Shown: positions 60,191 through 63,894 of the stretch, in pieces
How the letters are laid out: the number at the start of each line of letters is the position of its first letter
Position numbering within the stretch: position 1 is the stretch's first letter
NCBI RefSeq assembly: GCF_022458985.1
Contig: NC_061776.1
Coordinates: forward strand, 11,364,591 to 11,428,590
Source of the DNA: Mugil cephalus
Lineage: Eukaryota; Chordata; Actinopteri; Mugiliformes; Mugilidae
Direction of reading: 5' to 3'
DNA: 64,000 nucleotides
The notes under the pieces: generated by a model
Database searches by the model: none
What the model saw: only the letters and a program-made list of their open reading frames with translations
Told to the model about the DNA's origin: nothing
Made by a program: the position numbers and the translations under genes

Positions 60191-60729
60191 CAGAGGGTCG
60201 GCATCCCGCGGCTCCGGAGCCGCATGCGGCTCTTTCGTTCCAAAAAACACTGAACTCCCACAGTGCATTGCAGCACATTTACTAGTTGCTGTCGAGTATT
60301 TAATTCAAATGTATTTTTATTTTAGTGCGTTAGTTTTGTTTAAATATAATTCTAAATTTGAATTGATGATGATCTTGTAACATTAAAATAAAATGTTTTT
60401 TTTTTTTTTTTTTTTTTTTGTCGCTCAAAATATACGTCACAACTGCCGACGTGCGACAGGTCCAGCCCGCTATTTATTGAAGCTTTCGACATCAGGTAAG
60501 TCAACCATAGATAAATCCCTCTTAAATATGCATAAATGCAATTTCGTTTTCTCTGTAGCAGGTCCTTCATTTCATAAATGCAACACACTATAGGCCTAGC
60601 ATAGAGGTGAAAACGATATATGCAGTGTTATCTTCATTTTAGATGTCGAAAGGGTTTTGTAACTCCCCGTGTTTTCTGTTGGAAACGGGTCCAAATGGCT
60701 CTTTGCGTGTTGAGCGTTGCCGACCCCTG
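60191..60729. mobile_element. hAT-like non-autonomous element
   Basis: The terminal inverted repeats are cagagggtcggcatc on the left and its inverse gttgccgacccctg on the right. Flanking 8-base near-duplications gaccacac and gactacac fit the 8-base target duplication of hAT transposons. The left arm is GC-rich and palindromic (gcggctccggagccgcatgc). There is a poly-T run at about 60394-60419 and no transposase. Confidence 0.7.
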
Positions 60730-60789
60730 GACTACACTGTCACAAGTAATTGCACCACCAGTACAAAAAACAAACAAAACAAAACACAC

Positions 60790-60965
60790 AGGCAAATCCT
60801 TGGTTGGAAAGCTACTTAGAGGGAAGACATCAATGTGTGAAAATTAAAGATACTACAGGATTTAGAAAGATCATTTGTGGGGTACCCCAGGGATCAGTGA
60901 TAGGTCCAAAATTGTTTATACTCTACATAAATCATGCTTGTAATGTTAAGGATTTGTTAAAATGT
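60790..60965 (+). pseudogene. Reverse-transcriptase fragment of a non-LTR retrotransposon
   Basis: A frame reads WLESYLEGRHQCVKI, then IICGVPQGSVIGPKLFILYI, the conserved fingers/palm motif of LINE reverse transcriptases. Only this short block survives; the YxDD region is missing. Confidence 0.8.
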
Positions 60966-61014
60966 GTTATTTTTGTGTCAAAAATTCTCCTCAGTTTTTC
61001 TGATACACCAGCTA

Positions 61015-61367
61015 TGTAGGGGATGGTCATGTTCTTCCTTTTGCTGTGCTCCTCTTCCCTGTCTTTCCTGGGATATCTTTTTGCGCCTTTGACAAAGGCC
61101 CAGTTGGGATATCCACATGTTTTGAGGGTTTGTTTAATGTTTTGTCCCTCCTTGTCCTTGCCCTCCTGTCTAGTGGGTACAGTCGGTGCTCGGTGCTGGA
61201 GGGTTCTGATGACTCCAGTTTCTGGCAAGCAAGTTTCGGGTGGGTGTTACCCACAGAGTTTATTCCTATTTAAACCTCAATTTCCCACTTGTTTATCAGA
61301 ACTGAAGTAGCTACTTGGATGAGTGGCGAAACGTCTTCAAGAAATTCGACAAGTCCAGCTGACCTTA
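61015..61367. mobile_element. Retroelement 3' end (Penelope-like or LINE)
   Basis: The stretch ends in gatgagtggcgaaacgtctt, caagaaattcgacaagtcc, a phrase that recurs at the 3' ends of a common fish retroelement (probably Penelope-like; assignment from memory). Its right edge abuts the SecA-like relic and supplies the last codons of that frame. Confidence 0.55.
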
Positions 61368-63894
61368 TTCAAGGCTTTTTGGAGTGAGTCCACTTCATTG
61401 ATTATGATACACTGATAGCTGCGATCAGGCCTCACATCCTTCATCTCAAATATCTGGCGAAGGTGATCTGCAGCGAAGGCTTCGATAGTTCCATAGACCA
61501 CGTCTTTCCAATAGCATTCCTGACGATCCTTATCTTCAGATTTATTTGTGTTTGTGTCAACTGTGATTCTAAAGTACTTGTAGAATTGGGTCCATTCTTC
61601 TGCATCCCTTTGACACAAGACAGAAGAACTGGACACTACGTGTACTTTTTCACCCCGAAGCACACGCAGAACTCCAAACATGGCTGTGACGCAAGACTTT
61701 CCTTCTCCAGTGCCCATCTCCAGGAGTTTACCAGTGTCAGACAAGGCCAAGAGGCACCAGCTTATCATCTGAGTGGCTCTGGGCCACCACTTCCCTTCAG
61801 CCTTGTGCAGGTTTACAGCATTGCATAAGACTGCCAGGATCTCCTGGAGGTCTTTTGAGTCCACACTGTGTTTTTTGATTTCACCAGTTTTGATCAGGTC
61901 AGTTACACGAGTTACTACATCATATGCCTTTCTCAATGTCTGTTGATCAATCTCTTTCATCTGCTGTATTTCTTCAAAAAGAGTGTCAGTTTGAGTTGGT
62001 GTTGAGCACCTGAAAAACGGCCTTAATGGACTTGCATCTCAGTTCCACAGGTTCATTGTGGAATTTATTCAGGAGGTTTTGTAGGACCTCTGCAGCAAAT
62101 ACTAGGGAATCATTGTCCTTGAGCCTTGAAAGTTCCAGATTATGGAAAGCACTAAGATTTTGTTCTTCAATGAGAAATCCACGACTAAGCGGGACCTTCT
62201 CTGTTTCCATCACCTCTATGCCATGTACAATGTAATCAGACACAAAGTCATCCATAGTACCATAAACAATGTCTGCTTCCTAGACCTCTTTGTATGAGGC
62301 ATTAGTTATCTTCATGTTTGTGTTGACAGACATATCAAGGTACTTGTAGAAGTCAAACCATTCCTTTGTTTGCTCCTGTGAGTGAACATCAGAACTCAGC
62401 GCAATGTTTATCTTGTTTCCCTTGAAGACTTATGATGCTGCAAACATGGCTGTAACACATCTGTCTGTGTCAATACTGACCACTTGTAGCTCTCCACTCT
62501 TTTCAGTCAGCACCATTGCACACCACTGCATCATCTGCTTCACTGTAGGCCACCAGCCTTTTGTGTCAAAAAACGCTTTGCAGAGCTGAGACAGTAGGCT
62601 CTGTATGTAGCCTTCATCCAGTGTTGCACATTTGAAGGCATCCTTCACAAAGGGTGAATCTTTTGGTGCATTTTCTGAATATTGCAGGACACCAATGGTA
62701 ATGTTTTTATGATATCAATCAAAGGATCATTCAAATTCCATAGCATTTGTAATTCTTCCAGAGCTACATCTAGACAACTGTCATCTTTCTCTCTGAGAGT
62801 CTTTTGTAAATCCTGGTAGAATTTGTCAGGGCCATCAAAGTCAAGTGTCTCAACGAGAGAGCGTCCAGACTCATCTTTCCACTCAGGTGATAGTACACAC
62901 ATAGTACATACACTTGGACCAACGTAAGGATTTTGTTTATTGAACCATCCTCTGTGTATTTCTGTGACAGTGCTTGTAGTAGTTTCAGGGCCTCTGTTGG
63001 TGTCCATTGGTTTGTTTGTACGAGTTTGAGGAGCATTTCAGTGGATGCTGAATAGGTTTCCTTTGCATCAGAGTCAGATACAGAGCTTGAGTCAACAGGA
63101 AACTCTGACATACATCACTTGCTGATTGGTTGATTGACTCCACCAGGGACTGTAGGTGATTGGAGATGGTTTCTTGGGAACGTCCCTCAGATCTCCCCAG
63201 GGACAGGGAACACAGCTCTATGATGAACACTTGAGTGTGATGCAGTGTGTAGAGGGATGGGATGGCGCTAACCCATTCATCAAACAGCAGTTTGTCCAGG
63301 CCTGAGAGGATTTCACCCAGTTGATCAACCGTCAGCTGAGTGAGACTGAGATTTTGAAGTGGGATGCTGCATTTCAAAGAGAGGATTTCTAGAAGCTCAT
63401 CACTGTCTGATTCATCACTGTCTGATTCATCACTATCTTTAAACTCATCCAAGTGTTTTATTAGAACATCTTGCTTTGACTCATATTCTTCTGAAATGTT
63501 CCTGCACAGTTTCTCATGCTGCTGCTCAGCTTGTTGCTGTGATTTTTTTAATCTTTGATTTAGTTTTTTTTTGTCTCTCTTCTTCCTCTCTCTTCATCTC
63601 GTCTCCTCTCTTCCTCTCTCATTCTCTCCACTTCTCTTCTTATCTCTTCTCTTCCTCCTGTCTCTTCATCTTTTCATGGTCCCTGATTGGCTTGTTAAAA
63701 CAGTATTCACACTCGTACATATTATCACAGCCAACTGGTCTGTAGTATTCACCTGCATTGTACACATATACATGCTGCCCATGAACTGTACTTTGATAAT
63801 AGTCATCAAAGCACATGCATGGAGGTAGGACTTCATGACACTTGCAGCATCTCAGGCTGTCGCCCATGTAACATTCTGATGGTGCGTTTCCCAT
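61337..63894 (-). pseudogene. Broken SecA-type DEAD-like ATPase gene with two tandem halves
   Basis: Read on the - strand from 63894: MGNAPSE (a possible N-myristoylation start), a Cys-rich zinc-ribbon-like region (CCKCHEVLPPCMC ... CEYC), a charged coiled coil, a D/S/E acidic repeat, a helical region, then two ATPase-like halves. The first half (about 62600-62100) has KGWWPTVKQMMQWCAM but its Walker A is replaced (VVSIDTDRCVTAMF) and Walker B is lost (GFLIEEQ). The second half (61960-61370) has KWWPRATQMISWC, an intact EMGTGEGKSCVTAMF, VHVVSSSSVLCQRDAEEW and IIINEVDS, matching the SecA DEAD domain; its Walker B aspartate is Asn. Frame breaks occur near 63.65, 63.56, 63.11, 62.9, 62.65 and 61.98 kb, and in-frame stops near 62.43 and 62.28. 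Its end is cut by the retroelement at 61.37 kb. Similar SecA-profile proteins of unknown function exist in fish. Confidence 0.75.
63575..63665. repeat. CT/GA-rich low-complexity tract
   Basis: An almost pure pyrimidine run (tctcttcctctct type) on the + strand. It encodes the E/R/K-rich coiled coil of the SecA-like relic on the - strand, and two of that gene's frame breaks fall in it. Confidence 0.75.

Follow-up and report, generated by a model that had tools for sequence, protein, structure and literature searches.

A SecA-like pseudogene in Mugil cephalus and the giant multidomain family to which it belongs

Textbooks present SecA motors as machinery of bacteria and plastids, and a SecA-type domain in a fish chromosome is unexpected. 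The stretch analysed here (the window) comprises 64,000 nucleotides of Mugil cephalus (C7:11364591-11428590; the genome spans 634.8 Mb in 24 contigs, contig C7 about 29 Mb). The original prediction, made from the letters alone, described a SecA-like relic with a dead first and a live-looking second half in one protein. The similarity to SecA was borne out, as the SecA_DEAD profile matched the minus strand at 61337-62038 (E 4.1e-29, 102.2 bits; cut-off 24.6) and the DEAD profile scored 30 bits (cut-off 26). Translation confirmed the predicted GTGEGKS and the Asn in the Walker B motif IIINEVD, and the Cys-rich MGNxxS-type start was found as MGNAPSEC at 63894.

Comparison with a full-length fish relative by tblastn (P0004, 2,656 aa, used as reference) and with the other C7 copies by blastn revealed that the window copy (minus strand, 63894-61383) is a decayed, 3'-truncated duplicate of a giant fish SecA-like gene (Table 1). 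It stops at reference residue 1112, 42% into the full protein. A single protein, as first proposed, was not found: the coding sense runs through frames -2, -3, -2, -1, -3 and -1, that is, five frame changes, and is interrupted by four in-frame stops at reference residues 85, 92, 589 and 639. Reference residues 103-144, 307-378 and 733-899 were unaligned; the last two intervals are deletions relative to the neighbour copies and the first is a low-complexity coiled coil. Position 61337, originally given as the 3' end, takes in the whole 233-codon open frame, whose last 15 or so codons are unrelated to the family; the family similarity ends at 61383, at the same base in comparison with all three C7 relatives (blastn). 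Its homology to a coding family, combined with truncation, two larger deletions and the frame changes and stops just listed, makes the feature very probably a pseudogene belonging to the fish SecA-like family, and the description as a relic in a fish chromosome holds. By itself the window copy is ordinary. What had appeared to be an unusual architecture is the 5' fragment of a far longer, widely distributed protein.

Table 1. Remnants of the SecA-like gene in the window and one adjacent feature (window positions; ref, residue of P0004; id, identity).
Feature	Position	Strand	Evidence
5' coding remnant: MGNAPSEC start (myristoylation-type), Cys-rich N-terminus, coiled-coil start; two in-frame stops	63571..63894	-	tblastn P0004 1-102, 67% id; stops ref 85, 92
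Helical-rod remnant, other frame	63063..63563	-	tblastn ref 145-306, 61% id, frame -3
Deletion junction, ~210 bases relative to neighbour copy L013	63064..63072	-	blastn HSP ends vs L013, L011, L015
Helical-rod remnant	62908..63066	-	tblastn ref 379-431, 72% id, frame -2
Helical-rod remnant	62699..62893	-	tblastn ref 433-497, 54% id, frame -1
Pseudo-SecA NBD1 (first SecA domain, without Walker-A lysine), two in-frame stops	62001..62708	-	tblastn ref 495-732, 63% id; stops ref 589, 639
Deletion junction, ~500 bases, ref 733-899 gone	61988..61989	-	blastn HSP ends vs L013, L011, L015
Second SecA NBD1 (in relatives, the first half of a live motor), cut off at the 3' side; 33-base loss relative to L013	61383..61987	-	SecA_DEAD 102 bits; tblastn ref 900-1112, 77% id
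Walker A GTGEGKS	61694..61714	-	translation
Walker B IIINEVD, Asn for Asp	61388..61408	-	translation
Possible reverse-transcriptase fragment, ~360 bases past the truncated end; neighbour, outside the gene	60750..61019	+	RVT_1 E 1.5e-5, 25.2 bits, below curated cut-off 29.6

A repeat adjoins the truncated end (window 60240-60976) and was also found at C7:11451836-11452599 (85% identity) and C7:11436043-11436730 (75% identity).

The two-SecA reading proved right, since the first half (62175-62606) aligned with the live SecA domain of P0004 (ref 957-1101; 34% identity, E 4e-22, tblastn). This upstream half gave no Pfam match of its own, and no Walker-A lysine motif was found in its frame. The second nucleotide-binding domain (P-loop_SecA) is absent from the window copy, which is cut at ref 1112, and had no other match within the 64-kb window; it scored above cut-off in the loci L013, L015, L017 and L020. 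A dead first half and a live-looking second half is thus an apt description, but death of the first half by decay of the window copy itself was rejected. Where the first domain should have its Walker-A lysine, relatives that carry both SecA domains had Lys in only 1/68 and Asp in 60/68, and in the second domain the lysine was kept in 65/68, the other three being gaps; these counts cover 68 of 70 two-hit proteins, among which are fragments and split hits, and degenerate motifs cannot be aligned with certainty. The Walker-B Asp was present in 67/68 second domains (the remaining row, P0036, has Asn) and in 9/68 first domains, so the first half is not uniformly dead. Judged from these alignments, the pseudo-SecA first domain is a conserved family trait. 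The window copy lacks the pairing of Walker A Lys with Walker B Asp by which a SecA motor was recognised, its Asp being replaced by Asn; as this Asn is peculiar to the window copy among the copies examined, it is best read as that copy's own decay. In P0123, the sole row with a first-domain Lys, NBD1 and NBD2 are both present in each of two SecA units, a layout which suggests that the pseudo-SecA arose through tandem duplication.

The window copy is one of three tandem copies on C7. The neighbours (L011 and L013), at distances of about 15 and 30-37 kb, have the same orientation, a fourth C7 copy (L015) lies 6.5 Mb off, and paralogues are located on C1 and C17; in the tree the Mugil paralogues fall into three groups (C7 long, C1 short and C17). 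By HSP, the window copy was 92-98% identical to its two neighbours and 86-91% to L015. None of the four C7 copies as assembled (0/4) reads through in a single frame, a homopolymer assembly error being possible for L015. As assembled, L011 has two frame changes, large losses and one stop, L013 one frame change and three stops, and L015 a single stop and two frame changes. L011 and L013 have a stop at reference 607 in common, which is absent from the window copy. L015 retains an open frame of 1,687 codons that starts at its ATG and spans the two SecA domains as well as NBD2; in L013, an open frame of 1,995 codons reaches near the C-terminus. Since no C7 copy reads through, the long form may be dying out in Mugil cephalus. 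Between L015 and L013, dN/dS was 0.26 in the SecA core (630 codons) and 0.38 for the main frames (1,047 codons); the N-terminal part gave 0.42, the C-terminal frame 0.46 and the rod between the SecA domains 0.82, so the motor has been under constraint and other parts evolved faster. The ratio was 0.68 for L011 and L013 and 0.66 for the C17 pair. On C17, a broken SecA-like copy (L021, C17:23651000-23660999) is adjoined by a reverse-transcriptase frame (RVT_1, E 7.6e-23).

Full relatives have about 2,600 residues and combine an MGN/Cys-rich start, helical rods, the pseudo-SecA and the SecA motor with a TPR-like region, a hairpin that is hydrophobic and rich in Gly, an OTU-like domain that seems to be permuted, and a DHQPP domain. 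A strict myristoylation pattern was satisfied at the N-terminus in 28/45. SecA_PP_bind scored above its cut-off in L017 (28.1 vs 23.5) and below it in L013 (19.0) and L015 (21.8), and was not listed for L020; the predicted model of P0098 aligned with SecA from residue 14 to residue 771 (first and last aligned), its scaffold having a predicted SecA-like fold. The peptide cross-linking domain (SecA_PP_bind in L017) and a helical scaffold (P0098 model) are therefore found among the relatives. NCBIfam SecA models matched L013 and L020 far below their cut-offs.

In the OTU-like domain the His part precedes the Cys part. Cys and His were both kept in 54/90 rows, and the Cys was gone in 34/90. Part-matches to the Pfam OTU N-terminal and otubain C-terminal, all sub-cut-off and in permuted order, were obtained in 5/10 C-terminal proteins and in P0150 (Mugil cephalus), beside equally weak, chance-like Pfam matches such as Glyco_hydro_20b in 3/10 C-terminal proteins. 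In fold searches with the P0067 model (pLDDT 70.6), SecA and helicases filled the matches listed, with no OTU among them. A protein search with the C-terminal part gave 46 matches, the named ones all from fish; several of these (P0194, P0195 and P0201 among them) show neither SecA nor hairpin motifs and may be incomplete gene models or genes in their own right. As regards polymorphic toxins or effectors, which have a conserved trunk and exchangeable C-terminal toxin-type domains, P0179, P0180, P0185 and P0187 carry precomputed Pfam accessions that may denote such domains, and L023 has a LysM. One predicted protein of Prochilodus magdalenae (P0118) joins ApoL, a FISNA-NACHT NLR, LRR and the SecA core, and is possibly a gene-model fusion or an immune link.

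The little-studied SecA-like gene family was found in fish, amphibians and some invertebrates, and is common to them and bacteria, some of which live inside other cells. A protein search with the fish core gave 389 matches, of which the best 120 were, where named, mostly from ray-finned fish, plus a coelacanth and a crayfish; among the matches listed, many named fish have relatives, with identities of up to 84% and of about 80% over the 851 residues searched. The best 120 of 163 matches in a second protein search included frogs, a salamander, a horseshoe crab, a fluke, a nematode, a bdelloid rotifer and a Rickettsiaceae bacterium. Relatives are mostly named 'protein translocase subunit SecA(-like)' or 'uncharacterized'. 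Scanning 84,980 bacterial and archaeal genomes yielded 39 pattern stretches, seven of them coding for relatives, a lower bound because the scan requires two short patterns. The carriers are labelled Alphaproteobacteria, Candidatus Bandiella, Rickettsiaceae, Parachlamydiales, Bacteroidetes, Cytophagales and Proteobacteria; three of the seven loci bear the names of intracellular groups, and the rest are vaguely named MAGs. Canonical SecA matched nearly the whole profile in the genomes G002, G004 and G005, most of it in G001 and a fragment of it in G003; in G006 and G007, MAGs that may be incomplete, only the SecA-like match was found. In at least three of the seven genomes, which also have a nearly complete canonical SecA match, the giant is thus an extra. 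Genome G005 has three long SecA-like frames. Carriage of the gene by viruses was considered and rejected: the scanned viral contigs gave 24 pattern stretches and no relatives, and the 24 records matched in a phage collection were all below 60% identity, none over 80% of the query. Among the 20 of these 24 records that were listed, three were annotated, all as SecA.

The bacterial giants were 34-38% identical to the fish core and have one SecA domain and differing C-termini (LysM in L023). An HMM of the hairpin built from animal sequences only matched the long ORF in 6/6 loci (L022-L027, E 3e-5 to 9e-26); it had no match in L028 (888 aa) or in the locus-cut ORFs L033, L035, L037 and L043, and on four canonical SecA and reversed decoys it found nothing at E under 1. 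In one pass, the TPR-region HMM matched L022, L024, L027 (via L035), L037 and L043 only and missed L023, L025, L026 and L028; with an iterated profile the TPR-like region was recovered in 5/6 of L022-L027, not in L023. Animal-only HMMs of the N-terminal, mid-helical and OTU-like parts matched no bacterial ORF at E under 1, and that of the C-terminal part gave one weak match outside the expected place (L035, E 0.003). The animal OTU-like profile, by comparison, gave 94.6% for the C-terminus of L026 and 91.1% for that of L027, 14% for the middle OTU of L027, 0.2% for L023 and less than 1% for eight shuffled controls. These two giants from bacterial MAGs (L027:1821-14405, 4,195 aa, and L026:6138-12773, 2,212 aa) have permuted OTU-like C-terminal parts, and L027 has a further OTU match in mid-protein (PF02338, E 2.5e-9).

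A tree of 59 rows and 411 columns was calculated; protist, insect and Wolbachia sequences and the window fragment lie outside it. The family was split from four canonical SecA by a branch with 100/100 support, and so does not group with canonical bacterial SecA. The 32 animal-labelled rows formed one clade (99/99), 20 of them with a named organism and 12 called animal from their place in an earlier tree, in which the node printed for the clade bears 27 (re-rooting may shift supports). None of the bacterial rows falls within the animal clade, nor do they make up a single clade of their own. L013 and L015 were nested in the vertebrate clade. The crayfish protein P0070 (Procambarus clarkii LOC123766096), 51% identical to the mullet core, also fell inside the vertebrate clade, and holding it out gave an AU p of 0.0012 in a test chosen post hoc; its position suggests a fish-to-crayfish transfer or hidden paralogy. 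Three named invertebrate proteins, P0178 (Clonorchis), P0182 (Globodera) and P0189 (Adineta), fell among the bacterial rows, perhaps as a result of separate transfers or because they are symbiont sequence. The idea of an old transfer, in one direction or the other, raised in the original prediction, is hence supported in outline: the family forms a clade distinct from canonical SecA, and bacteria have it too.

An intact relative would be held at the membrane by N-terminal myristoylation and the hairpin, its pseudo-SecA domain would act as a non-hydrolysing scaffold or regulatory partner, and its second SecA domain would hydrolyse ATP and move polypeptide in the manner of SecA; the C-terminal domains, one permuted and OTU-like, the other DHQPP, are the putative cargo or effector. 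The analysis showed the predicted fold of a relative, the motifs, the constraint, the architecture and a common descent with the bacterial giants; membrane tethering, ATP-driven polypeptide movement, an effector role of the C-terminus and a defence role are what we infer for these proteins. That intact relatives are membrane-tethered, ATP-driven polypeptide motors has about an even chance of being right; a defence role of the family we consider rather unlikely. The SecA core and the Gly-rich hydrophobic hairpin, mostly with the TPR-like region, are common to the family and the giant bacterial proteins, and the most likely history is that of an effector-like giant gene exchanged between bacteria and animals and then domesticated, perhaps in defence. 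The furthest-reaching scenario is a domesticated SecA-type polypeptide motor of vertebrates, tethered to the membrane and fused both to a constitutive pseudo-SecA and to an effector domain of permuted OTU-like type; it would have been exchanged with giant effectors of intracellular bacteria, would now serve cell-autonomous defence and would later have passed from fish to a crayfish lineage. We consider this scenario unlikely.

For the window itself, bacterial contamination or a recent bacterial insertion comes to mind because SecA belongs to bacteria and the nearest relatives found outside animals come from bacteria as well. This is very unlikely, indeed close to negligible, because the tandem copies are on a 29-Mb contig, paralogues are on two others and relatives occur in many named fish, and because the C7 copies L013 and L015 (the window fragment itself being outside the tree) belong to the vertebrate clade. 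Another conceivable reading is that the locus makes a functional short protein, a truncated SecA decoy which would bind ATP through its Walker A but, with Asn in Walker B, not hydrolyse it, and would regulate full-length paralogues. The 233-codon open frame with GTGEGKS and NEVD is consistent with such a decoy, as is a dN/dS of 0.35 to L013, which derives from 9 synonymous and 12 non-synonymous differences in 202 codons, counts that are too small for use and that also cover the period before the copy was inactivated. Lesions interrupt the coding sense upstream at several points and the final 15 or so codons are foreign to the family, which argues against the decoy, and we regard it as highly improbable beside the pseudogene.

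For the intact relatives, the SecA core could instead be a nucleotide-driven switch, a sensor like STAND or RIG-I-type immune ATPases. Its fused pseudo-ATPase domain and helical rods would resemble the design of such sensors, and P0118, perhaps a gene-model join, is predicted to be fused to a fish NLR; the peptide cross-linking region (L017) and the SecA-like scaffold fold have been kept, as befits the translocation motor, and we hold the sensor to be possible but somewhat doubtful. As to the direction of exchange, an old eukaryotic gene acquired by bacteria, and not the reverse, is a serious candidate, if short of an even chance: three of the seven carriers are by name from intracellular groups, the giant is an extra in at least three, and PMC3639933 reports matches in Tetrahymena, Polysphondylium and Salpingoeca besides insects and favours the eukaryote-to-bacterium direction for Wolbachia. 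Against it, the bacterial rows are scattered outside the animal clade, in a tree without protists, insects and Wolbachia.

Eukaryotic secA genes were already known. PMC3639933 (2013) described a clade of such genes that includes insects and Daphnia, weaker matches in Tetrahymena and Polysphondylium, transfers to Wolbachia (wBol1_1091/1092) and Amoebophilus, and very long genes in which most annotated introns were judged spurious; its text contains none of the words fish, vertebrate, zebrafish or Danio. PMC5062602 lists SecA among phage WO domains nearer to invertebrates than to bacteria, and PMC3482391 reports SecA-like domains in Amoebophilus effectors. Among the best matches listed from the open-licence literature, judged by title and start of abstract, we found no treatment of a vertebrate SecA branch, a pseudo-SecA partner or the shared long architecture. 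If fish and amphibians do have a large and conserved family of SecA motors, animals would own a protein-pumping ATPase outside organelles, and the family would be a test case for the domestication of symbiont effector genes; the window locus is only a dead signpost to it.

Compared with canonical SecA (B. subtilis, PDB 1m6n and 6itc), the family shares NBD1, the peptide cross-linking region, NBD2 and the scaffold fold as well as the motifs Walker A, DEVD, ATNxAGRGTD and QxxGRxxRxG. It differs as a separate clade of giant multidomain proteins with, in fish, a second, dead SecA domain, and its TPR-like region and hairpin were not found in the four canonical SecA examined. Animals are not known to have a cytosolic SecYEG partner. 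The secondary SecA_DEAD proteins of Planctomycetes and others, as described in PMC4452313, likewise stand beside a canonical SecA, but are tied to type I secretion genes and miss most of the scaffold-wing domain. With OTU/otubain peptidases and permuted OTU-like enzymes such as LupA (PMC10318531), the family has the Cys and His motifs and weak Pfam matches in common; unlike OTU peptidases, it has the His part ahead of the Cys part, and the Cys is missing in over a third of the rows. As described in PMC3639933 and PMC5062602, the insect and Daphnia secA and the Wolbachia and phage WO SecA resemble it in their very long genes, the SecA core and exchange between eukaryotes and bacteria. The bacterial giants L022-L027 share with it the SecA core and the Gly-rich hairpin in all six cases and, in L026 and L027, the OTU-like C-terminus.
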